A stretch of 23,104 bases of DNA from a virus. The stretch spans positions 1 to 23,104 of the IMG/VR virus record IMGVR_UViG_3300027621_000042; one strand, 5' to 3'. Below, piece after piece: positions 1,663 to 21,451 of the stretch. Both the position numbers and the translations under genes were made by a program. The notes beneath the pieces are model-generated. The model was not told the origin of the DNA. It did not search any database and saw only the letters and a list, made by a program, of their open reading frames with translations. Position 1 is the stretch's first letter, and each line of letters begins with the position of its first letter.

Positions 1663-1989
1663 ATGAAAGAAGAAGATCTTATCTTTATAGATTTAGTTGA
1701 ACAAGGTGCAATTGAGTATGCTGGTTTAAATGAAGAGGGTGAAGCAATTTATAACTTTACCGACAAATTAAAAGACATTAATCCAGATCTATTTGACATA
1801 CATCAAACACAATTAAACCGTGAGGTAATGTTTTTGTGGGAACAAGGATTTTTAATAATTGATTTATTGCAAGACAATCCAGATGTTGGGTTAACAGAAA
1901 AGGCTTTTGATGAAGATGCTATTTCTTGGTTAGATGATATCTATAAAACAGTTTTGAACGAAATCAAAAGAATTTTATCGCAACAGTGA
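1663..1989 (+). CDS. Small acidic phage protein, unknown function
   Basis: 108 residues, rich in Asp and Glu, with predicted helices and a hydrophobic stretch (LWEQGFLIIDLL) around residues 58-69. The pattern would suit a winged-helix or helical bundle fold, but I see no catalytic motif and do not recognise the family. AGGGAG lies just upstream of the ATG. Its TGA stop (1987-1989) doubles as the TGN of the extended -10 promoter for the next gene. Confidence 0.6.
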   Translation: MKEEDLIFIDLVEQGAIEYAGLNEEGEAIYNFTDKLKDINPDLFDIHQTQLNREVMFLWEQGFLIIDLLQDNPDVGLTEKAFDEDAISWLDDIYKTVLNEIKRILSQQ

Positions 1990-1995
1990 TACAAT
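1987..1995 (+). promoter_or_regulatory. Extended -10 promoter, leaderless type
   Basis: TGATACAAT reads as TGN plus the -10 hexamer TACAAT (1990-1995). Exactly six bases separate it from the ATG at 2002, so transcription would begin at or next to the start codon. No Shine-Dalgarno sequence precedes that ATG. Confidence 0.55.
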
Positions 1996-2001
1996 AGATG
2001 T

Positions 2002-2415
2002 ATGAATGAATTTATTGTAACATTCTTGACAATTTACGGTATTTGGGCTATACTTCATACAGTAAAGAAAAACGAAAGCAAGTCTTTACCAAAAATTAAA
2101 TATAGTCAGACTAGGATTCACAGTATTATTTCTAGCCTTTTGCCAGAAGGTATAGAGATAAAACGTGTATCTCAAACTACAAAACTGAAAGAAAAAAATA
2201 CCTTTCGTGTTTTGGTTGTTGGCCCAACTGCTTACTGGGTAAATAACAATGTGTTTTATCAAGCAAATGTAGAAGAAGGCGAAGTCGATAGGGAAAATGC
2301 AAAACCAATTGACTTTACAAATATGGACAATAAAGAAGTAGCAAAGATGTTAGATATATTAGATCACCTAAAGAATGGAAAAAGAAATGAAGGTCGTAGT
2401 ACAGGGAACCAATGA
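2002..2415 (+). CDS. Small membrane-anchored protein, unknown function
   Basis: 137 residues. Residues 4-20 (FIVTFLTIYGIWAILHT) form one membrane segment, followed by a basic stretch and a soluble domain containing FRVLVVGPTAYWVNNNVF. I do not recognise a family. The likely topology is an N-terminal anchor with a cytoplasmic body. It has its own predicted leaderless promoter and overlaps the next gene by about 29 bases. Confidence 0.55.
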   Translation: MNEFIVTFLTIYGIWAILHTVKKNESKSLPKIKYSQTRIHSIISSLLPEGIEIKRVSQTTKLKEKNTFRVLVVGPTAYWVNNNVFYQANVEEGEVDRENAKPIDFTNMDNKEVAKMLDILDHLKNGKRNEGRSTGNQ

Positions 2416-2737
2416 GTTCGATGAGTATTCTGTTTTCCTTCGTTCTATGGGTGTGATGATGTCTGGTTTAAAAGAAACCGATCATGAGTTTATTGTATAT
2501 TCGTTAGGGCCATCAAATGTAAATGATTTTGCTTCTGAGTTTTGTAATGTTTCAGAACGAAATCTAAAGGCTAGAGGAATCAAAGTTAAGTTTATCAAGG
2601 TTCATTATACATGGGTCGAAGAAAACTTACATGAAATTGATTACTTTTCCTATCTATCAAAACCAAACCAAGCACTATCAAATATAGCAAGACTTGCACA
2701 AGAGCAAGATTTTGAATTTGGAACATTCCAATACTAA
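2387..2737 (+). CDS. Degenerate SLOG/YspA-like (DUF2493-type) protein, tentative
   Basis: About 116 residues from the chosen ATG (MKVVVQGT); an in-frame ATG at 2375 would add four residues. The layout MKVVVQGT, then EFIVYSLGPSNVNDFASEFC, then LKARGIKVKFIKV recalls the small Rossmann-like SLOG/DUF2493 plan of a nucleotide-binding strand, a GGARGAD-type loop, and an RGI strand. The usual GGARGAD loop is replaced by LGPSNVND. The call rests on this pattern alone. Neither start has a strong ribosome site, and the homology-like start was preferred. Confidence 0.4.
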   Translation: MKVVVQGTNEFDEYSVFLRSMGVMMSGLKETDHEFIVYSLGPSNVNDFASEFCNVSERNLKARGIKVKFIKVHYTWVEENLHEIDYFSYLSKPNQALSNIARLAQEQDFEFGTFQY

Positions 2738-2746
2738 GGAGTAATA

Positions 2747-2962
2747 ATGATTGTAAATAATTTAAAACAAATGGAATCAATTGTTTCCATGAATAGCAAA
2801 TTGTCTTGGGATGGTTGGGATGTTCTTGAACTAACTCCATTAGATTCTGCTGCCTTTGAAAAAAACGGAGTATATAAAAATAATAAATGGAATATTCAAA
2901 AAAGATATGTAGCAAACCGTAACGGCTGGACTATGCCAGATAAGTACAAACAGCATGAATAA
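2747..2962 (+). CDS. Small phage protein, unknown function
   Basis: 71 residues with an SWDGWDVLEL core and a basic, tryptophan-containing tail (NGVYKNNKWNIQKRY). No catalytic or metal motif is seen. AAGGAG six bases upstream gives a clear start. The last eight bases overlap the WhiB-like gene, which suggests translational coupling. Confidence 0.6.
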   Translation: MIVNNLKQMESIVSMNSKLSWDGWDVLELTPLDSAAFEKNGVYKNNKWNIQKRYVANRNGWTMPDKYKQHE

Positions 2963-3236
2963 ACATTTATGGAAAGAAAGTGCTGCCTGTAAAGACTTTG
3001 ATACAAATCTATTCTTTGATAAGTATGAGGAAACTCCAGATATTCGTCATGGTGTTGACAGTGTTTGCCTAAAGTGTCCAGTAGCAGCAACTTGTTTTGC
3101 TGTTGGAATATCACAGAAAGAATATGGAATTTGGGGCGGTATTTATTTAGACAAAGGTAAAATATCTAGAGAGTTTAATAGCCATAAGACAAAATCTAAA
3201 TGGTCTGAAATATGGCAGAATCTGACAATGAGGTAA
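2955..3236 (+). CDS. WhiB-like iron-sulfur transcription regulator
   Basis: 93 residues with the full WhiB signature: C12, then C38-x2-C41-x5-C47 to ligate a [4Fe-4S] cluster, and the GIWGG turn at 58-62. A basic C-terminal tail (SHKTKSK) is present for DNA or sigma-factor contact. WhiB-like (Wbl) proteins are confined to Actinobacteria and their phages. They act with the host primary sigma factor, so this is the best single marker of the host phylum. A phage copy may retune host transcription or repress host wbl genes (known of some mycobacteriophage WhiB proteins; inferred here). It overlaps the preceding gene by eight bases. Confidence 0.9.
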   Translation: MNKHLWKESAACKDFDTNLFFDKYEETPDIRHGVDSVCLKCPVAATCFAVGISQKEYGIWGGIYLDKGKISREFNSHKTKSKWSEIWQNLTMR

Positions 3237-3237
3237 A

Positions 3238-3468
3238 ATGTATACAGACGCAATGAAGCGAGCAGTTAGATCTCTTACTCCTCCACAAGGATTTGGTGTA
3301 GATATTATTGATAATGAGCATTTCATTACAGTAAGAGCAGATGAAAAAAGTTTTATGAATTTATTTGACAGAGATAAAAGAGTTGCTGTAGAATATATGG
3401 TAAGGGTTAAAAAAGCCTTAGAAGAAAATGGGGCTATAGTTATGTTAGTTAGGACGGGTGGAAAATGA
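3238..3468 (+). CDS. Small phage protein, unknown function
   Basis: 76 residues, compact alpha/beta composition: MKRAVRSLTPPQGFGVDIID, a strand region EHFITVRAD, a charged helix, and a final GAIVMLVR strand. No active-site motif is visible. GAGG five bases before the ATG supports the start. It starts two bases after the WhiB-like stop and ends in an ATGA overlap with the next microgene. Confidence 0.6.
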   Translation: MYTDAMKRAVRSLTPPQGFGVDIIDNEHFITVRADEKSFMNLFDRDKRVAVEYMVRVKKALEENGAIVMLVRTGGK

Positions 3469-3587
3469 TTATAAAAAAAATTATATGTAAATTTAAAGGT
3501 CATATTCTTGTAGATGCTGGAGCATGTCCATTTACTGGCAATACATATGTTGGCTGTACTCGTTGCAATACTCTTAAGGTTGTTTGA
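3465..3587 (+). CDS. DUF1660-like zinc microprotein
   Basis: A 40-residue gene. It begins in an ATGA overlap with the previous stop and ends in a TGATG overlap with the next start. It reads MIIKKIICKFKGH, then C21 and C31-T-R-C34. The CxxxGH ... CxRC arrangement resembles the phage DUF1660 family, which probably binds zinc and has no assigned role. Perfect stop/start coupling on both sides argues that it is translated. Confidence 0.6.
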   Translation: MIIKKIICKFKGHILVDAGACPFTGNTYVGCTRCNTLKVV

Positions 3588-4102
3588 TGCAAACATTTTT
3601 GCCGTCAAGTGACATTTCATATACCGCAAAATCTTTAGACAATAAAAGACTTAACAAACAGATCCTTGAGGGGTATCAAATACTCAAAGTGTTGTCAGGA
3701 GAGTCACCGTCTGGAGCATGGCGTAATCACCCTGCAGTGCTTATGTGGAAGGGCTATGAGACTGGCCTGTGGTCTTATATACAGCACATGATAGAAGAGG
3801 CTAAGGTTCGTGGTATTAAGACAATAAACAATGAGAACAACCTTAATGATCTTAAAGAAAAATGTTCGGGTAGATGGGGAAAGACTCCACCAATGTTTTG
3901 GTCTAATGATAATAAAGTAATGCGTATTACAACAACTCACAAGGCCAATCTATTTAAAAAAGATCCTATCTATTATATTAAATATCAGTATGCAAAATCA
4001 AGCCCATACAATGTTCCGTGCTGTCCAGAACGCAAAGTTCCTTGCCAATATTATTGGCCAACACATGAGGAAAGAAATGAGTTATTAGATGCAGTTCTTT
4101 AA
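3587..4102 (+). CDS. Pyrimidine-dimer DNA glycosylase (endonuclease V-like) family protein
   Basis: 171 residues. The N-terminal MQTFLPSSDISYTAKSLD, then DNKRLNKQILEGYQIL, and GAWRNHPAVLMWKGYE match the MSMEG_6572-type branch of the Pyr_excise family related to T4 endonuclease V. Such proteins are expected to act on UV-damaged DNA in the host cytoplasm. The C-terminal part has a cysteine cluster (CCPERKVPC) that could be structural. The ATG overlaps the DUF1660-like stop; a TTG one codon earlier is less likely. A light-exposed aquatic habitat would make repair useful, which is inference. Activity is not proven for this branch. Confidence 0.75.
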   Translation: MQTFLPSSDISYTAKSLDNKRLNKQILEGYQILKVLSGESPSGAWRNHPAVLMWKGYETGLWSYIQHMIEEAKVRGIKTINNENNLNDLKEKCSGRWGKTPPMFWSNDNKVMRITTTHKANLFKKDPIYYIKYQYAKSSPYNVPCCPERKVPCQYYWPTHEERNELLDAVL

Positions 4103-4858: not shown

Positions 4859-5548
4859 ATGAATTTTGTATACATATGTAAAGATGGTGAAAACGAAGAA
4901 CTTAGATACTCAATTAGATCTGTTGTAAAAAATACTAATGATCCAAAAATTTGGGTAGTTGGTGGAAAACCAGATTGGTATGTTGGTAATCATATTTCAG
5001 TATTACAAAATCAACATAAATATCAAAATGCACTTAATAATCTTAGGGCTGCCTGTGCCTCTGAAGAAATACCCGAAGACTTTATATTAATGAATGATGA
5101 TTTCTATATTACAAATAAAATAGATGAAATAAAAATATATAACAATGGATTGCTTGAAGATCAAATAAATCAGTATCATAATCTTGGGCTTAGGTCTACT
5201 TATTTACATAGACTAGGAAAAACATATGCCTATCTACAAAGAAGAGACATACCAAACCCTATTAGTTATGAAGTTCACTTGCCAATGCCAATGAAAAAAA
5301 GCAAACTAATAACCATCCTTGAAGAAAATTATTCAACACTTTGGAGATCAAAGTATGGAAATACATTTAACATTGGCGGAGAAACAGTAAAAGATGTCAA
5401 GGTTCACAAAAGTGGTGGGTTAGTTGCACTTTCATATAATCAAGACCAAGAACAAATTCCTTACTTGTCTAGCGCAGATAGTTCTTTTATGTTTTTGTTA
5501 GATTATTTAACTACAAATTTTTCAGAAAAATCTACATATGAGCAATAA
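4859..5548 (+). CDS. Stealth-like glycosyltransferase (GT-A type)
   Basis: 229 residues. NEELRYSIRSVVKNTNDPKIWVVG (12-35) followed by a P-D-W segment and FILMNDDFYI (75-84) follows the order of the CR2 region of Stealth-type sugar-phosphate transferases. The adjacent aspartates D80-D81 would bind metal and a nucleotide sugar. It is much shorter than full Stealth proteins, so only the core is present. GAGGG precedes the ATG. Its end overlaps the convergent glycosyltransferase gene by 17 bases. It is the only glycosyltransferase here on the + strand and could act on the same polymer as the minus operon. Confidence 0.65.
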   Translation: MNFVYICKDGENEELRYSIRSVVKNTNDPKIWVVGGKPDWYVGNHISVLQNQHKYQNALNNLRAACASEEIPEDFILMNDDFYITNKIDEIKIYNNGLLEDQINQYHNLGLRSTYLHRLGKTYAYLQRRDIPNPISYEVHLPMPMKKSKLITILEENYSTLWRSKYGNTFNIGGETVKDVKVHKSGGLVALSYNQDQEQIPYLSSADSSFMFLLDYLTTNFSEKSTYEQ

Positions 5549-6572
5549 GATCTAAATACTTATCCTTTAGATTATTTTTAGCAAAATGATTTAGTCCTAT
5601 TTGTAATGCAGAATCTTTCATTTCACGCTTATCTTTGTTATCCATATACTCATCAACAATACTTGCTAGATGTTCTGGATTTCCATCATATACATCTACT
5701 AACGATTTGGCTTGAAAACTATTGATGTGTTCAGATTTTATTAACCATTTTTTAGGAAGCAACAAATTGTTTGGAGATATGTCCGTCATAAATACTGGGA
5801 GTCCACTAATCAATGCCTCATTCATTGGAAGGCACAAACCAGCATACCTTCTTGGCAAAAGCATAGCATCAAACCCATTATAAAGTTCTTCCCTATTTTC
5901 TGGATTACTATTATTAATTGTAACTCTTGAATCTTTTAAATCTAACTCTGGAAACTTTTGTGTTGTAATTACTAACTCATAACTTGCCTTTGAATACTTA
6001 AGCATTTGCAAAACAGTTTGAGTTCCATTTCTATCCTTTGCTGCAAACTTTCCACCAACGTGCAACAATCTATTATGATCTTTTGACATATTGTTTTGTC
6101 TAACATTTTCAAATAAGGTTGTGTCGGTTGGTGGTGGAAGGTGAATTACTTTACATCTTCCATCAACCATTTTTTCTATTTGCTCTATGTTCCATAAACT
6201 TGGAGCAAGTAAAACATCTGGAAGTTCTGCTTCTGGATTAGACATGTTAAGTAAAAATTCAAAATTATATTGTAAGATTGTTTTAATGCCTCTTCGTTTG
6301 GCATAATGTAAAAAATCTTGTCTATAGAAAGTTTCACAACTTAGCACCACATCTATGTTTCTTAAAAAATCTATTACTTCTGGCTTAGTTGGAAAACCTC
6401 TTTCCGTATGTACTACATTATAATCCTTATACCATTCTGGATGTTGTTCATTACTATTGAAATGTTCTGAGTCAATCAATAAAATTTTGTCGGGATTAAG
6501 CATCTTAACTAATTCCCGTGTTTGATTTCCTAGTCCAGTATTATCAGATCTAGCAATAATTCCAAGTGTCAT
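5532..6572 (-). CDS. Family 4-type (GT-B) glycosyltransferase
   Basis: 346 residues. The N-terminal part shows GIIARSDNTGLGNQTREL, a typical GT-B acceptor-side loop. The C-terminal part has HVGGKFAAKDRNG and then YAGLCLPMNEALISGLPVFMTD, the segment that grips the nucleotide sugar in GT4 enzymes, with a Glu in the usual EALxxGxPV position. It probably transfers a sugar to a growing glycan in the cytoplasm. Start: ATGA overlap with the previous gene and GAGGA nine bases upstream. It is the last gene of a five-gene minus operon. Donor and acceptor are unknown. Confidence 0.75.
   Translation of the reverse strand: MTLGIIARSDNTGLGNQTRELVKMLNPDKILLIDSEHFNSNEQHPEWYKDYNVVHTERGFPTKPEVIDFLRNIDVVLSCETFYRQDFLHYAKRRGIKTILQYNFEFLLNMSNPEAELPDVLLAPSLWNIEQIEKMVDGRCKVIHLPPPTDTTLFENVRQNNMSKDHNRLLHVGGKFAAKDRNGTQTVLQMLKYSKASYELVITTQKFPELDLKDSRVTINNSNPENREELYNGFDAMLLPRRYAGLCLPMNEALISGLPVFMTDISPNNLLLPKKWLIKSEHINSFQAKSLVDVYDGNPEHLASIVDEYMDNKDKREMKDSALQIGLNHFAKNNLKDKYLDLIAHM
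5550..5579 (+). terminator. Weak AT-rich intrinsic terminator
   Basis: A seven-pair stem (5550-5556 with 5566-5572) with a nine-base loop is followed by TATTTTT. It lies just past the + strand glycosyltransferase stop, inside the 3' coding end of the convergent gene. The low stem GC keeps confidence modest. Confidence 0.4.
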
Positions 6573-14824: not shown

Positions 14825-15868
14825 ATGAAAACTTCTAGATTTATCGTAGCAGCAATCGCTGCATCTTTATTCATCGCCCAACCAGCCCATGCAGATCAAC
14901 TTACGGGTTCTGGTTCATCATTCATTGCTAACTTTATTAATGAATGCCGTGTTCAATATGTAAAAGCCTCTGGACATAACATAGAATACACACCACTAGG
15001 ATCAGGTGCTGGAATTAATATGTTTATGCAAGGCACTGTTGATTTTGCAGCAAGTGATGTTGCTGCTTCACAAATTAATAAAGCAAAAGATTTTGTGTAT
15101 GTTCCATTAGTAGCAGGCCCTATTGCAATTGCATATAGAATTGATGGGTACAAAGGCAAGATTCAATTAAAGAAAGAAACATTGGCTAAAATTTTTGCAG
15201 GGGATATAACAAAATGGAATGATCCTCAAATACTTAAAGATAATACTATAAAGAAAGTAAAACCAAAACTACCAAACCTTCAAATCATGGTTTTCTATCG
15301 TGCAGATAGTTCAGGAACAACTCAAGTAGTAGCAGAATACCTTAGTGCTATTGCTCCATCAATCTGGACAAAGGCTCCAAACAAGTCTTTCACACAAGCA
15401 TTTCCAAAAACTCAATTACCTATAGGAACCTTTAGTTCTGTTGCTGGAACTAATCTTATGGCATCTCAGGTTGCACGTACAAATGGCGCAATAGGCTATA
15501 TGGAATCTTCTTATGCTACAAATCAAAATCTTGCTAAGGCATCTATTGAAAATGGTGCTGGTGTGTTTATGCAACCTACATCTGAAGCAGCATCTGCATT
15601 CCTGAGTGACTTTGAGCCTGAAGGAAATGGCATCATTGTTCCAAACTATAACAACAAGGATAAAAAGGCTTACAACATATCCTCGTTCTCTTATGGCCTA
15701 GCACCAACACAGGCAAGCGATAAGGCAAATATTATTAAAGGATTCTTTAAGTATACTGCCACTTCATGCGCTAGTCTTTCAGCCAAAAAATTGGAATACT
15801 CTCCACTTACAGGATCAGCATTGGCTATAGCAAAAGCACAGATTGCATTAATTGGATCTAAGTCTTAA
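14825..15868 (+). CDS. pstS: Phosphate-binding protein PstS
   Basis: 347 residues. A signal peptide (MKTSRFIVAAIAASLFIAQ, cleavage after AHA at about residue 23) leads to a type 2 periplasmic-binding fold. Phosphate contacts are visible: TGSGSSF (27-33), a SDVAAS segment, and YRADSSGTTQ, matching the RxDxSGTT loop of E. coli PstS. No lipobox cysteine is present, so it is probably secreted or wall-associated rather than a lipoprotein. It would capture phosphate for the host PstCAB transporter during infection, as proposed for cyanophage pstS genes. No other pst gene is next to it, so it is a typical lone auxiliary metabolic gene. Single-gene + unit. Confidence 0.92.
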   Translation: MKTSRFIVAAIAASLFIAQPAHADQLTGSGSSFIANFINECRVQYVKASGHNIEYTPLGSGAGINMFMQGTVDFAASDVAASQINKAKDFVYVPLVAGPIAIAYRIDGYKGKIQLKKETLAKIFAGDITKWNDPQILKDNTIKKVKPKLPNLQIMVFYRADSSGTTQVVAEYLSAIAPSIWTKAPNKSFTQAFPKTQLPIGTFSSVAGTNLMASQVARTNGAIGYMESSYATNQNLAKASIENGAGVFMQPTSEAASAFLSDFEPEGNGIIVPNYNNKDKKAYNISSFSYGLAPTQASDKANIIKGFFKYTATSCASLSAKKLEYSPLTGSALAIAKAQIALIGSKS

Positions 15869-16186: not shown

Positions 16187-16747
16187 TCACTTACGATTTA
16201 AACCTAATGCTGGCCTTGACATATCAGAGCCATCATACTTAAACCAGAGAGTAGCAGAATATCTTTCTTTTACAGTATTTTCAAGTACTTCATGCCAATA
16301 GTCTGCATTACTAGGAAATGTGATAAAACTGTTAGCCTTTGGTTTAATTTTCAAATTATGATCCATAAAATTAATTTCTCCTCCTTCATAGTCATCATTG
16401 ATATAATATATTACTGCAAAATCTCCTGCAGTATCCGCATGCTCATGCATCTTATATCCTTTTTCAAATTTAATTAAAGGAACTGTTCCTTTTTCAAAAA
16501 CATAAAGTTTTACATTATGAAAATTTGTACATTTTTGATAAGCGGTTCTAAAAATTTTTTCTAACAAATCAACAATTTCTTCTGGCATTTCTTTTGATAA
16601 AAGAAACTTAACCCCCCAAGGTTGAGTTTGCCAAGAATCAACACTTATTGTATAATCAAGCAGTTGTTTGTGTTCTTCTTTAGACAAAACATTTTCTGTA
16701 ACCTGTATATTATTTATAGAGTTTCCTAAATTAGATTGGATCATCAT
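16187..16747 (-). CDS. P4Hc-type 2OG-Fe(II) oxygenase (array copy 1, short N-terminus)
   Basis: 186 residues from the ATG at 16747; an ATG one codon later is equally possible. It has a HxD (H103-A-D105), YYINDDYEGGEINF, FPSNADYWHEV with distal H152, and R162. It is a close paralog of the next upstream gene: the strings GNSINNIQ and TENVLS are shared, and the underlying DNA of that stretch is nearly identical. It lacks the DEIYLANVAK segment that precedes GNSINN in its paralog. It would hydroxylate a side chain or small substrate with O2 and 2OG. It overlaps the upstream gene by 17 bases and is the last of the array. Confidence 0.75.
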   Translation of the reverse strand: MMIQSNLGNSINNIQVTENVLSKEEHKQLLDYTISVDSWQTQPWGVKFLLSKEMPEEIVDLLEKIFRTAYQKCTNFHNVKLYVFEKGTVPLIKFEKGYKMHEHADTAGDFAVIYYINDDYEGGEINFMDHNLKIKPKANSFITFPSNADYWHEVLENTVKERYSATLWFKYDGSDMSRPALGLNRK

Positions 16748-17342
16748 ACCACTCGCTTTTCTTATTAAAAGTAGACCCAGTATACTGAAACCACAAAGAT
16801 GAACTATATCGGTCTCCACTTGTAATTTCAACTACTTCGTGCAAATAGTTTTCATTTCCAGGAAAAACAATTAAACTATTTGGTTTAGGTTTAATCTTTA
16901 ATTTATAATTTGGAAAATTAATTTCTCCACCTGTGTAATCATCATTAATATAATATACTGATGCAATATGATTTGATTCACTTGACTCAGCATCTATATG
17001 TTGTTTTAAAGAAAAATCTTTTTCAAATTTAAGCAAATTTAATGACAAATCTTCAAAAAAATTAATTTTTATATCATAAAAATTTTTAGATTTTTCATAA
17101 GCAAGCGTAAAAACTTTATTTAATGAATTAAGAATTTCTTTAGGCATCTCATGAAATATAATAACTTTACTATCCCAAGGTTGAATTGTCCAAGATTCAC
17201 GGGTTTTTACAAAATCAAGTATTTGTTTATGCTCATCTTGAGATAACACATTTTCAGTATATTGTATGTTATTTATAGAGTTTCCTATTTTTGCAACATT
17301 TGCTAAATAGATTTCATCTTTTTTAGAATGATTTTGGATCAT
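16731..17342 (-). CDS. P4Hc-type 2OG-Fe(II) oxygenase (array copy 2)
   Basis: 203 residues. An N-terminal DEIYLANVAKIGNSINNIQ leader is followed by the oxygenase core: H115-I-D117, YYINDDYTGGEINF (130-143), FPGNENYLHEV with H168, and R178. The triad and the 2OG-binding arginine are all present. The start codon lies in a repeat unit at the end of the preceding gene, and the C-terminus (EWYDDPI) in turn encodes the ATGATCCAA start of the next copy. The likely substrate is a protein or glycan; the prolyl-4-hydroxylase-like class does not fix it. Confidence 0.8.
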   Translation of the reverse strand: MIQNHSKKDEIYLANVAKIGNSINNIQYTENVLSQDEHKQILDFVKTRESWTIQPWDSKVIIFHEMPKEILNSLNKVFTLAYEKSKNFYDIKINFFEDLSLNLLKFEKDFSLKQHIDAESSESNHIASVYYINDDYTGGEINFPNYKLKIKPKPNSLIVFPGNENYLHEVVEITSGDRYSSSLWFQYTGSTFNKKSEWYDDPI

Positions 17343-17991
17343 AATTCATAAAATTCTTTGGATCATAATTGATCTTTTTATAATGCTTTAGATTATCTTT
17401 TGTTTCTCCTACAAATGTAGAACCTTTAAAAACAAAACTTACCTGGTAAGTATACCTAAATCCTTTTGTAACTTCATGTACTCCGTGAGCATAGTTTTCG
17501 TTACCAGGAAACATAAGTAAACTATTTGATTTTGGTTTAATTTTTAAATTATAATCTGGAAAAAATATTTCTCCACCTTCATAATCATCATTAAGGTAAT
17601 ACATACCTATAATATGTAGATTTTTTTGAGCCTGTATGTCTATATGAAGGTTCATTTTACTTCCAGGACTCCACCTTCTTAAAAGAACGTCTCTAATTTC
17701 TGGATAATCATTTACTTTTACATCATAATAATCCATACAATTTAATCTAGCAAGTGGATATATTTTTTTTATAATTTTAACGTAATCTTCCGGAATTGAA
17801 TTTGGGGCAGTTCTGTCTGTAGTCCAAGGCTCTTTAATCCAAGGGATTTGATCAGAATTATTTACAAAATTAGATAATGTTTGATACTCTTCATTAGGTA
17901 AAAAATTATCTATAACATATACGTTTTTTGCAGAACTTCCTAATTTAGCGGCATTTGCTAAATAGATTTCATCTGGGCGATCAATCATCAT
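17323..17991 (-). CDS. P4Hc-type 2OG-Fe(II) oxygenase (array copy 3)
   Basis: 222 residues. The leader DEIYLANAAKLGSSAKNV is shared with copy 2. The core has H116-I-D118 (NLHIDIQ), YYLNDDYEGGEIFF (131-144), FPGNENYAHGV with H169, and R179. The C-terminus contains the near-repeat NYDPKNF/NYDPKSF produced by the DNA repeat at the junction. The start makes an ATGA overlap with the SGNH-like gene upstream. This longer copy may be the parent form from which copies 1 and 2 arose. Confidence 0.8.
   Translation of the reverse strand: MMIDRPDEIYLANAAKLGSSAKNVYVIDNFLPNEEYQTLSNFVNNSDQIPWIKEPWTTDRTAPNSIPEDYVKIIKKIYPLARLNCMDYYDVKVNDYPEIRDVLLRRWSPGSKMNLHIDIQAQKNLHIIGMYYLNDDYEGGEIFFPDYNLKIKPKSNSLLMFPGNENYAHGVHEVTKGFRYTYQVSFVFKGSTFVGETKDNLKHYKKINYDPKNFMNYDPKSF
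17334..17366 (-). repeat. Two copies of ATGATCCAA at an oxygenase gene junction
   Basis: Read on the minus strand, ATGATCCAA occurs at 17342-17334 and 17366-17358, 24 bases apart, within a longer near-repeat (TTTGGATCATAATT on the + strand). The first carries the start codon of array copy 2; the second is in the NYDPKN coding end of copy 3. A third copy is at 16744-16736, the start of array copy 1. Confidence 0.6.
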
Positions 17992-18986
17992 ATACCTATC
18001 ATATCATAATTTTGTTGCGTACGTAACTTATAAAACAAACTTGCAATATGAGTATGAAAATGAATGCCTGGATGAGCATAATCTTTTGTCTTTTTATTAT
18101 TTATGATTGAGTAATCAGACCCTCTTTCCCACTGTGGATGATCTTCAAACTCAAAATTATAATGTGAAAGACAATCATAAGAATAACCTGGCATAGAGTG
18201 TGAAAAATTTTTTAATTTAAAATCTTTAATTTTGGACATTTCTTGCAAAATTGCATAAGTAGGCTTATCCCATGTTGTCCAATATAACTTTATGCCATTT
18301 GTTAAACAAAATGATTCTAAAATATAAATAAAATTTACAGAATCTAATATTAATTGATGCGGAGAAACAGAATCTTCTATATTGCTTTTATCTTTTATTT
18401 CCATAAGTATGCGATTTTTACTGTACTGGCTAACTTTTGGATTGCAAAAGGTTAGTATTAAATTATCTGATTCATCCCAATACCTCTTGCTTAATCCCGA
18501 TTTATAAAATTCTTTGTCTATTACAACCATACTTCTAAAAAAATCTGGAAATAAACAAAAAATTTCTTTTGGCATTTTATTATTCATACAGTATTTAATG
18601 ATATTGGTACAAACATTTTTTACAGATGCTCCTTCAACGCCTAAATTAATGATGTTTTTGTTAATTTGGTTGCTTAAAATATTTGTCCATCTTGCCTCCT
18701 CTGGAACTCCAATACCAAAAGTTATAGAACATCCAGATGCTATTACATCTGAATTTTCATCAATTTCTCCACGAAAACCATACTTATTAATTTCGTATGT
18801 ATTGTCATCATCAACAGTTACAACGTTAGCCTTGTCAAAAACATTAACACTATCAAAAACAACTGTGGAATTAGGATTGTGCAGTCCAACAATATTAGTG
18901 TTTGAAAAATGTTTTGTCAGATATTCTTTGTTTTTTTCTCTACCAAATATGTAAAAACCTAAAATATCCCTTGTGAAATAAGTCAT
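17988..18986 (-). CDS. SGNH-hydrolase-like protein
   Basis: 332 residues. INKYGFRGE (67-74), then block I ASGCSITFGIG with nucleophile S87, NLGVEGASV (114-122) giving the block II glycine, and D302-Y-A-H305-P-G as the catalytic Asp/His block. This is a complete SGNH set, unlike the more divergent relative at 10612-11388. It would remove or transfer O-acyl groups on a glycan, or serve as a carbohydrate esterase. It heads a minus unit of one SGNH and three oxygenase genes with overlapping ends. The start at 18986 sits six bases after an extended -10. Confidence 0.7.
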   Translation of the reverse strand: MTYFTRDILGFYIFGREKNKEYLTKHFSNTNIVGLHNPNSTVVFDSVNVFDKANVVTVDDDNTYEINKYGFRGEIDENSDVIASGCSITFGIGVPEEARWTNILSNQINKNIINLGVEGASVKNVCTNIIKYCMNNKMPKEIFCLFPDFFRSMVVIDKEFYKSGLSKRYWDESDNLILTFCNPKVSQYSKNRILMEIKDKSNIEDSVSPHQLILDSVNFIYILESFCLTNGIKLYWTTWDKPTYAILQEMSKIKDFKLKNFSHSMPGYSYDCLSHYNFEFEDHPQWERGSDYSIINNKKTKDYAHPGIHFHTHIASLFYKLRTQQNYDMIGI

Positions 18987-19001: not shown

Positions 19002-20426
19002 TTAAACAAAATCAAACCAAAGTGGCATAATATACCTTGATCCATTTGAAGAAGCAACATGGTACCAATAGTGAATATTTCCAGGGAATAAAATTAAATC
19101 ACCAACCTTTGGTTTAAATGATACCCCTTGATGAACAAAAGACAACTCTCCACCTGCATAATCATCGTTCAAATACACCCAACCTGCTAAGTGATTTCCA
19201 TCTTTATGCCCTAAATCGTCTATTGGTATTAATTGACTATTGTTGTGTACCCATTGAGCAAAACGAGAATTTCTTGGTTTTATTTTTACATTGTATTCTT
19301 TTTCTATTAAAGACTGAATTTCAGGAATATATTTTTTTGAATAGTCAAGTGAATCATAATATAACAAAGATAAAGTAGGCTTGCCAGAGTTGTCAGTTTG
19401 AATAGAACGATTGTTGCTTATCTCTGTATTGTTCATTAATTCTATAATATTTTTACACTCTTCTTTACTTAGGTAGTTGTTAAATATTTTTATATTATCG
19501 GGACTACTTCCAATATTGGTAAAATTTTTGTTGGTTAATTCAGATATTACAATTGGTTTTTGCTCAACAAGTTCAATATTATTAAAATCTTTTACTAATT
19601 TCAACAACTGACTAATATCTTCTTGATCAGTATGAATCATAAAATCATATATTTCAAATTGTTTTGATAGTTCTTTTATTTGTTTAACAACATCTAACAT
19701 TGAACCCTTTACGTGATGATGTTGTTTTCTTGGTGCTGCATTTTTATCATACTTAACATTTTTTTCATCTTCTGAACTATTCATAATAAGAGGATCAATG
19801 ATAAGAATTGGCTTTACACGACTAAGATCAATCTTTTTAAATTGTTCCTTATATATTAAATTATCATCTACATATATGTATTCTGTATGCTTATTTGCTA
19901 TTTCAATTGTTGTGTCTGAAGATCCAACCACAGCCAAATGAGTTTTGTATTGATGCTTATCCATTAATTTAACAAAATTTTCCATCCAAACCCTTGAAAT
20001 TTCAACTCTTTTTTCAAGCGTATCAATAAGTGATGAATCAAGCATATAATGCTCTAGAACTATCCTTTCGCTATGTCCATTGCCTTCGTCCCCCCACCTT
20101 CCAGCAACAAGATTTACGCCAATTCTTTCAGGAGCAAAACGATTTAACGTATCAACAAGTTTAGCAGCGTAATCTGGACTTGTACCGTATGCTGGCAAAG
20201 CAATTGTCATAATTAATTGATCTGTTGCTTTTAATGACTCTGCAAGAACTAAAGAAAAATCTATACCTATTGGGCCATAAGGAAGCAAAACAGATTTTAC
20301 TCCTGCACCATCTAACTCTTTTGCCATCTGCATAATTCCGTTAAGGTCTAAATGATCAACGCTATCATTTATTTGCCAATGCCTTCTCCACATCCAATGA
20401 AATGTTATAGGTTTTTCATTATGCAT
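19002..20426 (-). CDS. Fusion of luciferase-like (SsuD-like) flavin monooxygenase and P4Hc-type 2OG-Fe(II) oxygenase
   Basis: 474 residues. Residues 1 to about 285 follow the luciferase-like monooxygenase TIM barrel: FHWMWRRHW, AKELDGAGVKSVLLPYGP, YGTSPDYAAKLVDTLNRF (80-97) and RIGVNLVAGRWGDEG (101-115) align with the SsuD alkanesulfonate monooxygenase order. This domain should use reduced FMN and O2. After a linker, residues 304-474 are a complete oxygenase: GSSPDNIKIFNNYLS leader, H407-K-D409, VYLNDDYAGGELSF (417-430), FPGNIHYWYHV with H456, and R464. The frame is continuous across the junction. The gene overlaps the upstream one by eight bases. Two different O2-activating chemistries in one chain suggest sequential steps on one substrate; the substrate is unknown. 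Confidence 0.8.
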   Translation of the reverse strand: MHNEKPITFHWMWRRHWQINDSVDHLDLNGIMQMAKELDGAGVKSVLLPYGPIGIDFSLVLAESLKATDQLIMTIALPAYGTSPDYAAKLVDTLNRFAPERIGVNLVAGRWGDEGNGHSERIVLEHYMLDSSLIDTLEKRVEISRVWMENFVKLMDKHQYKTHLAVVGSSDTTIEIANKHTEYIYVDDNLIYKEQFKKIDLSRVKPILIIDPLIMNSSEDEKNVKYDKNAAPRKQHHHVKGSMLDVVKQIKELSKQFEIYDFMIHTDQEDISQLLKLVKDFNNIELVEQKPIVISELTNKNFTNIGSSPDNIKIFNNYLSKEECKNIIELMNNTEISNNRSIQTDNSGKPTLSLLYYDSLDYSKKYIPEIQSLIEKEYNVKIKPRNSRFAQWVHNNSQLIPIDDLGHKDGNHLAGWVYLNDDYAGGELSFVHQGVSFKPKVGDLILFPGNIHYWYHVASSNGSRYIMPLWFDFV

Positions 20427-20685
20427 TATAAGTTTCTCTTCCTTTTGTTTTAAACCAAGATCCTATCTTGGCAGTGGCTACCTTTATGCGTAAAACTTCT
20501 GCAAATGTGTCATGAGATATTTCTGAACCAAGGTACTCTTGTCCAGTTTCAAGATCAATTAATTTCCATTTTCCAGGAGCCTTTGTGTGAAGAATTAAAT
20601 CTATAGGATGTTCGTAATCTTTTACTTCAGATCCATTTAACAATTTTCTTGTTTTATTATTCTCTGTTAAATTTTTATGCTTCAT
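20419..20685 (-). CDS. Small protein of unknown function
   Basis: 88 residues. After a basic start (MKHKNLTENNKTRKLL) it has a beta-rich core GKWKLIDLETGQEYLGSE and a KIGSWFKTKGR end. Similar short IDLETGxxYxGS segments occur in phage small proteins of no known role. It has its own predicted leaderless promoter and overlaps the fusion gene by eight bases, so the two are likely one unit. Confidence 0.6.
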   Translation of the reverse strand: MKHKNLTENNKTRKLLNGSEVKDYEHPIDLILHTKAPGKWKLIDLETGQEYLGSEISHDTFAEVLRIKVATAKIGSWFKTKGRETYNA

Positions 20686-20699: not shown

Positions 20700-21311
20700 C
20701 TATACTATTGTAAACCAAACAGGCAAGGTATATCTAGTTCCAGACAACACCTCTTTAACTTCATGTGGATAATGCAAATTTCCAGGGAAAAACAAAAGAT
20801 CTCCAATTTTTGGCTTCATAGATATTCCGTGAGTTTCAAAACTTATCTCTCCACCTTCATAATCATCATTTAGGTATACAAGTGTTGCTATTTCGTTATC
20901 TGTAATATAGCCAAGATCATCGACATGCAAGTTTAATCTAGACCCTTTTTCCCATTTAACAACTTTGAGAAGTCGTGGTTCTTTTTCTACTATATTGGTA
21001 AACCCATATGCTTTAATTAATTCTTCTTTAATTTTGCCTATTATTTTAAATTTATCAAATATATTTGTATGCATATGCATCCAATTAAGGGCCTCGCCTT
21101 TATCATCTTTTTGAGATGCAAAACTTAACATTGGTGCTTTTTCTAAAGAATTCATTAAATGTTTAATCTCTTCATCAGACAAAAAATTAGGAATAACTTT
21201 TATGTTATTTGAAGAAGATCCAACTGTTTCAAAAAAATTATTGTAAGAGTCGCTTCTTTTTATATCTTGTGGATCATTACCAACTGCTATATTATTAACT
21301 ATGTATCCCAT
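20700..21311 (-). CDS. P4Hc-type 2OG-Fe(II) oxygenase (array copy 5)
   Basis: 203 residues from the ATG at 21311; a longer frame to 21374 runs through a promoter and is rejected. The leader VGSSSNNIKVIPNFLSDEE (30-48) matches the start of the oxygenase half of the fusion protein. The core has H129-V-D131, VYLNDDYEGGEISF (145-158), FPGNLHYPHEV with H183, and R193. The domain is nearer in sequence to that of the fusion than to copies 1-3 (LNDDY rather than INDDY, and a GISMKPKIGDL strand). Single-gene unit with its own leaderless-type promoter. Confidence 0.8.
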   Translation of the reverse strand: MGYIVNNIAVGNDPQDIKRSDSYNNFFETVGSSSNNIKVIPNFLSDEEIKHLMNSLEKAPMLSFASQKDDKGEALNWMHMHTNIFDKFKIIGKIKEELIKAYGFTNIVEKEPRLLKVVKWEKGSRLNLHVDDLGYITDNEIATLVYLNDDYEGGEISFETHGISMKPKIGDLLFFPGNLHYPHEVKEVLSGTRYTLPVWFTIV

Positions 21312-21317
21312 AAATCT

Positions 21318-21323
21318 ATTATA
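21318..21323 (-). promoter_or_regulatory. -10 box, leaderless type
   Basis: TATAAT on the minus strand, six bases before the ATG at 21311. A weak TTTACT lies 18 bases upstream as a possible -35. Confidence 0.55.
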
Positions 21324-21325
21324 CC

Positions 21326-21451
21326 CTAATTTTCCAGGGAAAGTAAAGAGCCATTCGTAATCCCTATATAACAATTAAGGCAATAGATACCATCAATGAT
21401 TGCTTGTGTGGCATTGAGTTCATTACAGAATTTGCATGGAATACCGTTCAT
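21326..21451 (-). CDS. 41-residue zinc-ribbon microprotein
   Basis: From the ATG at 21451: MNGIPCKFCNELNATQAIID, then CLNC at 24-27 and a short tail. Two CxxC pairs (6/9 and 24/27) make a complete zinc ribbon. It begins in an ATGA overlap with the 70-residue gene and stops just before the next promoter. Role unknown. Confidence 0.6.
   Translation of the reverse strand: MNGIPCKFCNELNATQAIIDGIYCLNCYIGITNGSLLSLEN

Follow-up and report, generated by a model that had tools for sequence, protein, structure and literature searches.

A phage gene joining a luciferase-like barrel to a P4H-fold domain without its metal triad

The window analysed here, a virus record of 23,104 bases taken at its full length, carries on its minus strand a gene in which a luciferase-like (LLM) barrel of the SsuD/MsuD type is fused to a C-terminal domain of the P4H/2OG oxygenase fold from which the metal triad has been lost. 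The fusion, both folds, the triad loss, purifying selection, the gene order and two split variants were all recovered computationally. The protein is best explained, at a rough probability of 0.5, as a flavin-dependent tailoring oxygenase equipped with a metal-less P4H-fold domain for substrate binding or docking. The gene and its surroundings are as follows.

19002..20426, minus: fused gene for a 474-aa chain, LLM barrel plus metal-less P4H-fold domain (coordinates include the stop)
19557..20426, minus: N-terminal luciferase-like (SsuD/MsuD-type) domain, residues 1-290, eight barrel strands predicted
19005..19541, minus: C-terminal domain of the P4H/2OG fold (residues 296-474), without the metal triad
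20419..20685, minus: gene for an 88-aa protein, immediately upstream of the LLM gene, whose start it overlaps
20700..21374, minus: active-type P4H paralog, H-x-D...H...R intact
17988..18986, minus: SGNH/GDSL-like hydrolase gene, downstream (weak; PF14606, E 0.0094)
17323..17991, minus: active-type 2OG oxygenase paralog
16731..17342, minus: active-type 2OG oxygenase paralog
16187..16831, minus: active-type 2OG oxygenase paralog

The fused gene and its neighbourhood

One open frame of 474 aa runs from 20426 to 19002 on the minus strand and spans both halves; the plus strand over the same interval is crowded with stops. Uncultured viral contigs were scanned with the full protein, which gave 134 stretches encoding a relative, the best 80 being taken further, and a second time with the N-terminal half alone, which gave 129 matches, again with the best 80 used. 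The frame, counted as unbroken when it ran from before residue 60 to past residue 420, was uninterrupted in 79 of the best 80 of the 134 loci, and the 80th locus begins within the gene; an assembly or frameshift artefact is thereby ruled out. The first-pass annotation had described the halves as a single continuous chain and had named a missed stop or frameshift between them among the findings that would refute this; the chain is continuous and neither fault was found. The single chain is real, and the fusion is conserved in an uncultured phage family.

The same annotation had taken the fusion to be rare. In the annotated phage collection it is; among uncultured viral contigs, with 134 stretches encoding a relative, it is frequent. 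At E 1e-5 no record of the annotated collection matched across both halves, five records (phages of the P-SSM2 type and a contig from a marine virus) matching only 70 residues of the C-terminal half (39%), and the N-terminal half alone, searched at E up to 1, gave two weak matches. The literature, going by search results alone, held nothing relevant on LLM/luciferase-like phage genes or on the fusion, and two papers on freshwater and Nanopelagicales phages were without words beginning luciferase, oxygenase or halogenase (a form such as 'dioxygenase' would escape).

Gene order was compared over 70 distinct loci pooled from the two viral-contig scans (best 80 of each). The 88-aa gene adjoined the LLM gene upstream in all 70; 64 of the 65 loci with room had a P4H of the 20700 type as the next gene upstream of the 88-aa gene; and a downstream sulfotransferase-like (54) and/or SGNH (32) gene was present in 61 of the 63 with room. 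The 20700-type active paralog matched solved P4Hs, and the 88-aa protein matched the end of PHROG 4098 (E 6.8e-9). The 88-aa protein was also weakly like part of T4-sized enterobacterial phage proteins (45% over about 50 residues, E 7e-4), some of these relatives being annotated as GlmU-like or nucleotidyltransferase. The earlier description of an SsuD-like barrel and a P4Hc-type fold, in a phage and amid an array of related 2OG oxygenases, was accurate.

Small sulfotransferase-like proteins (PF00685/PF13469, weak to moderate) were clustered up- or downstream of the cassette in several related contigs, at the positions below; the protein from contig L128 matched PF13469 only at E 0.06.

L087, 4395-4976, 6919-7488 and 7481-8071: sulfotransferase-like genes
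L107, 771-1403: sulfotransferase-like gene
L128, 8693-9361: sulfotransferase-like gene

In a related phage contig of 113 kb (L142), a gene for an FAD-dependent tryptophan-halogenase homologue (1836-3425; PF04820, E 6.4e-102) precedes the fused gene at a distance of some 1.2 kb; such a gene was seen in 3/70 loci. Within the window, the product of 1085-1660 matched PHROG 274 over its length, a match it has in common with the 2OG oxygenases. For proteins of the 2OG fold, the labels that PHROG gives to family 2297 ('DNA endonuclease') and family 274 ('DNA endonuclease V') look mistaken.

The DnaE of a related contig was 54.5% identical to that of Streptomyces phage BillNye, and sequence comparison makes an actinobacterial freshwater host likely. 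At 14825-15868 the window encodes a PstS with its nearest relatives in Actinomycetota, including Planktophila (36%), other phyla standing at 29-37%. A gp23 search for a T4-like origin gave no match in 10 records, its 14 controls being equally unmatched.

The C-terminal domain: fold, lost iron site and selection

Residues 296-474 were 30-37% identical to four neighbouring 2OG oxygenases. Predicted alone (pLDDT 90, pTM 0.86), the domain was closest to the viral collagen prolyl hydroxylase vCPH (Z 15.3) and to PHD2 (Z about 15), and the best solved relatives in the profile search were the P4Hs 3itq and 5hv0 (E 1.4e-8); model and profile were built from 25 rows, 4 of them active paralogs. The full-length model, made without paralogs, likewise matched viral 2OG-type proteins, and the C-terminal half matched PHROG families annotated as 2OG-Fe(II) oxygenase or as DNA endonuclease, with a best E of 4.1e-14. 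On these predicted models the domain has the DSBH/P4H fold. The four neighbouring paralogs matched PF13640 at E 2e-9 to 5e-14; PF13640 was absent from the fused protein's match list at E up to 1, a list from which filters drop most matches above about 0.1.

Metal columns were counted over unique 2OG domains found by BLAST in the loci, two fused rows of fewer than 140 residues being omitted. All 91 stand-alone paralogs found carried H, D, H and R at the metal and Arg columns (H-x-D...H...R). In the fused domains of the window's type (n = 65) the first-ligand column held Pro in 48, Ser in 8, Arg in 5 and Ala in 4, the second-ligand column Asp in 59 and Asn in 6, and the distal-His column Tyr in 63 and His in 2, with the Arg present in 65/65; in the five partners encoded as separate genes these columns read Pro (3) or Ser (2), then Asp, Tyr and Arg in all five. 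The first metal His occurred in 0/70 LLM-linked domains of the window's type (65 fused and 5 split), the distal column was Tyr in 68/70, and the Arg of the R464 position, the one to which the C5 carboxylate of 2OG is bound in P4Hc-type oxygenases, was kept in 70/70. The full triad was found in none of 79 LLM-linked domains, these being the 70 of the window's type and 9 of a sister lineage. The relevant codons of the window are the following.

19224..19226, minus: Pro401 codon, at the first Fe-binding His position of active paralogs
19200..19208, minus: residues 407-409, 'HKD', earlier taken as the HxD motif
19062..19064, minus: Tyr455 codon, in the alignment column where active paralogs have their distal metal His

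The first-pass annotation had read a complete oxygenase, with HKD and a distal His, Fe(IV)-oxo chemistry on the chain and, as a possibility, two successive oxidations. HKD was rejected as an iron site: it lies six residues downstream of P401, and the H407 column holds His, Ser or Arg in 21, 8 and 4 of the rows of an alignment of 33 representatives (mutual identity below 92%, the window's protein included). K408 and D409 are fixed in 70/70 and rare among active paralogs. The window itself retains D403 and, one residue beyond the distal position, H456, the column of which reads His, Asn, Asp or Ser in 20, 7, 4 and 2 of the 33 rows. With the first His replaced by P401, Tyr455 in the distal column and the first Fe(II)-triad His gone from every LLM-linked copy of this type, the completeness of the oxygenase is contradicted, and its Fe(IV)-oxo chemistry and the two successive oxidations are left unsupported; the fused protein is probably not a double-oxidising enzyme. 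Motif spotting of this kind can yield a false active site, and annotating the protein as a 2OG oxygenase would mislead.

The median pairwise dN/dS was 0.105 for the N-terminal half (413/528 pairs in range) and 0.162 for the C-terminal half (320/528 pairs in range), the pairs not being independent. The C-terminal domain had fold residues in common with the active paralogs, yet many fixed positions of its own, defined as present in at least 95% of 70 LLM-linked copies and in fewer than 15% of 82 active ones, among them N338, R340, Y356, S359, R385, R388, H394, S397, K408, D409, W416, Q433, W454, Y455 and D472. Because purifying selection is combined with many gained fixed residues, the pattern suggests a repurposed pocket rather than decay.

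In a 117-row tree the LLM-linked 2OG domains formed one group (98/90), separate from every active domain. Bootstrap values were still changing, and both LLM-linked branches are long, which may have contributed artificially to their joining. Two split versions were found, one in contigs L087 and L089 (adjacent genes 2886-3737 and 3739-4290 in L087) and one in L128 (adjacent genes 5001-5864 and 5851-6393). They fall at two places within the fused group, which makes it probable that gene fission happened twice; the persistence of the halves as neighbours after splitting supports a joint role.

A sister lineage (represented by L107; also L216-L231) comprised 17 loci at 75% identity or above, with 9 unique C-terminal domains. 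Its first-ligand column held His in 7, Gln in 1 and Leu in 1, its second Asn in 7 and Asp in 2, and the distal His and the Arg were present in all 9; the seven domains with His carry Asn, and the two with Asp are without the first His. The H-x-N...H...R arrangement of 7/9 unique copies recalls acid-less AspH or 2OG halogenases.

The N-terminal barrel: class, flavin site and origin

The N-terminal half matched the NCBIfam alkanesulfonate monooxygenase models TIGR03565 (E 5.5e-8) and NF001939 (E 4.6e-8), far below their curated cut-offs, as did all 13 members scanned, the window's included; Pfam Bac_luciferase (PF00296) gave E 0.015, under its cut-off, and SsuD and MsuD chains matched by sequence at E 7e-5. 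The full-length AlphaFold model (mean pLDDT 79, pTM 0.58; residues 15-25, 52-54 and 111-117 of low confidence) contained eight barrel strands, and in the 50 best rows of the structural aligner it scored Z 19.6-21.9 against FMN- and F420-type LLM enzymes. By barrel fold and sequence match the half belongs to the Luciferase-like (LLM) superfamily. The SsuD-type assignment made at first sight is upheld by the TIGR03565 match and the full eight-stranded barrel, and prediction of the full chain returned both that barrel and the matches to viral 2OG-type proteins.

Residues that serve FMN, O2 and sulfonate in MsuD, as named in the available passages of PMC8234197, were mapped by alignment onto 15 phage domains. 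Of the 15 flavin or O2-pocket positions checked in this way, nine were kept in 15/15 domains (L46, A75, N104, V106, G108, H123, Y127, S177 and S178), four were replaced (T49 by Tyr, R77 by Pro, L193 by Tyr and W195 by Asp) and two, R126 and G175, fell in alignment gaps, so that the FMN site sought by the first-pass annotation is partly preserved and partly altered. The second-shell H10 of MsuD was also retained. In an hhalign profile comparison with SsuD (covering 26-183) the equivalent of Y127 stood opposite Leu, and the Y127 match is therefore alignment-dependent.

At the sulfonate site, as given in the same passages, W195 is Asp, the columns of R225, H227, R296 and S299 are gapped, and none of the 15 domains has the RGGA loop; the beta-7 region is poorly aligned, and the statements on R225 and H227 rest on this weak stretch. 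The lid region is much shorter than in SsuD/MsuD. Since the sulfonate motif is missing and the flavin positions are partly kept, a bound flavin cofactor is likely from the conserved residues, and identity as an alkanesulfonate monooxygenase is excluded by the missing motif and by a model score of 32 bits vs a cut-off of 518.

A recent host origin of the LLM half was set aside in so far as no close relative turned up. An LLM profile search matched 0/251 genomes of the presumed host order (no positive control; close relatives only are covered); in the presumed host phylum it matched 6/346 genomes, each weakly and over part of the length. The two genomes reached via the PstS loci gave 0/2 in the same search, and two short patterns found no relative of the half in genome contigs (neither with a positive control). 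Two records labelled 'Acinetobacter phage MD-2021a', CAKLQH020000009.1 (L303) and CAKLQF020000013.1, matched SsuD or the LLM half weakly; the former carries a bacterial-looking ssu operon, is probably host DNA rather than phage, and served solely as a bacterial representative of SsuD.

Candidate functions and comparison with known systems

In the preferred explanation the protein would be a tailoring oxygenase of the phage, belonging to those LLM enzymes that are two-component and depend on reduced flavin, and its C-terminal domain, kin of the neighbouring P4H-type 2OG oxygenases, would have become a non-catalytic binding or docking module on losing its iron site. As its conserved residues suggest, the barrel would take FMNH- from a host reductase and form a flavin peroxide at the O2 pocket. 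The metal-less domain would then hold the substrate, or else the active P4H whose gene lies two places upstream, a step to which Arg464, the fold and the domain's own fixed residues point. More speculatively, the P4H and the LLM enzyme might act on one common target in phage or host, such as a surface glycan or a tail protein of collagen-like type, with the downstream sulfotransferase/SGNH enzymes acting later. That the metal-less 2OG domain has become a new ligand-binding site, delivering a substrate or the live hydroxylase to the flavin peroxide, is put forward tentatively and at less than even odds. Several observations count against the preferred explanation. The flavin site is only partly conserved, with the Y127 match dependent on the alignment, and flavin reductase PF01613 was found in only 10/81 genomes of the presumed host order, the host itself being weakly inferred. 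On the side of the C-terminal domain, the AspH case given below shows that activity can survive the loss of ligands, the window retains D403 and H456, and the sister lineage has H-x-N...H in 7/9 unique copies.

It is unlikely that neither half is catalytic, the barrel being a ligand sensor or scaffold and the chain an accessory subunit of the upstream active P4H. The near-invariant linkage to that P4H would fit such a role, as would the shortened lid region and the missing sulfonate motif (W195, R225, R296 and RGGA, 15/15, as the motif is described in the passages from PMC8234197), but the O2-reactivity pocket named there (N104/V106/L46/A75) is retained in 15/15, and the N-terminal half is the more conserved of the two (50% vs 34% invariant residues) with the lower dN/dS.

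Modification of a collagen-like tail fibre, with the P4H producing hydroxyproline and the LLM::pseudo-2OG protein and sulfotransferase then decorating it, is a doubtful proposal. Two long contigs of the group (112,922 and 115,201 bases) each encode a protein of 14 G-X-Y repeats, the one scanned matching tail-fibre and Collagen models; the neighbouring active paralog matches solved P4Hs, and by Z the C-terminal fold is nearest to vCPH.

L141, 5881-6612: collagen-like protein, 14 G-X-Y repeats, in a phage carrying several P4Hs
L147, 15830-16558: collagen-like protein, 14 G-X-Y repeats, in a phage carrying several P4Hs

It is possible that the G-X-Y protein is a P4H substrate and that phage fibres contain hydroxyproline. 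Against decoration of the fibre by the cassette, the fibre genes lie away from it, and collagen-like fibres are present in many phages without the cassette.

Catalysis by both halves, with a flavin hydroperoxide and an Fe(IV)-oxo species at an unusual iron site carrying out two oxidations in turn, is improbable. The P4H fold and Arg464 are retained, and ligand loss need not end activity, AspH working with two His and single-His variants being active according to the available text of PMC10947486; the H-x-N...H of the sister lineage could be read in the same way, and H394, D404, D409 and H412, each fixed in 70/70, could in principle build a new site. However, the first His and the distal His have given way as described, H407 and H456 are not conserved, the standard site is intact in all 91 stand-alone paralogs found, and D404 and H412 are common to active paralogs, whose aligned ligands sit elsewhere. 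Use of F420 instead of FMN by the barrel, as in several actinobacterial LLM enzymes, is very improbable, since the closest sequence models are FMNH2-dependent and the F420 ligase cofE was found in 2/81 genomes of the presumed host order, even if F420 enzymes score equal to FMN ones structurally (Z about 21) and the phage resembles actinophages.

If true, the tentative version, in which the metal-less domain delivers a substrate or the live hydroxylase to the flavin peroxide, would add a new flavin monooxygenase architecture and an unusual pseudoenzyme fusion in phages. Under the preferred explanation, an oxygenase domain without its metal linked to a second oxygenase would be a clear case of natural pseudoenzyme recruitment. 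The cassette of P4H, 88-aa protein, LLM::pseudo-2OG and sulfotransferase/SGNH is defined, and its product can be sought.

The best viral fold matches of the model were the 'Luciferase-like domain containing protein' entries of uncultured Caudovirales phages, A0A6J7WN64 (E 2.3e-15, 19% identity) and A0A6J7WQ01 (E 1.9e-14, 18% identity), which at 249 and 251 residues in the fold library have no room for a fused P4H-fold domain. The nearest models and solved sequences for residues 1-290 are the SsuD/MsuD FMNH2-dependent alkanesulfonate monooxygenases (group C two-component). Like these, the phage barrel keeps the Ser-Ser pair of the phosphate site and, in the O2 pocket, four residues of six, as far as the passages from PMC8234197 name them; unlike them, it has Asp for W195, a much shorter lid and no counterpart found for R225, R296 or RGGA, and is fused to a P4H-fold domain. 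With P4H/PHD2-type enzymes, vCPH (5c5t) in particular, the C-terminal domain has in common the DSBH fold (154 residues superposed at rmsd 2.8, Z 15.3) and the 2OG-binding Arg, but in 70/70 copies of this type the facial triad for Fe(II) has lost its first His. That a DSBH domain without metal can accompany a catalytic oxygenase domain has a precedent in the prolyl 3-hydroxylase OGFOD1/Tpa1p, the second DSBH domain (CTD) of which is described as lacking a metal site in the accessible part of PMC4396695; in OGFOD1/Tpa1p, on that description, both domains are DSBH, whereas in the phage protein the partner of the metal-less domain is a flavin-type TIM barrel.
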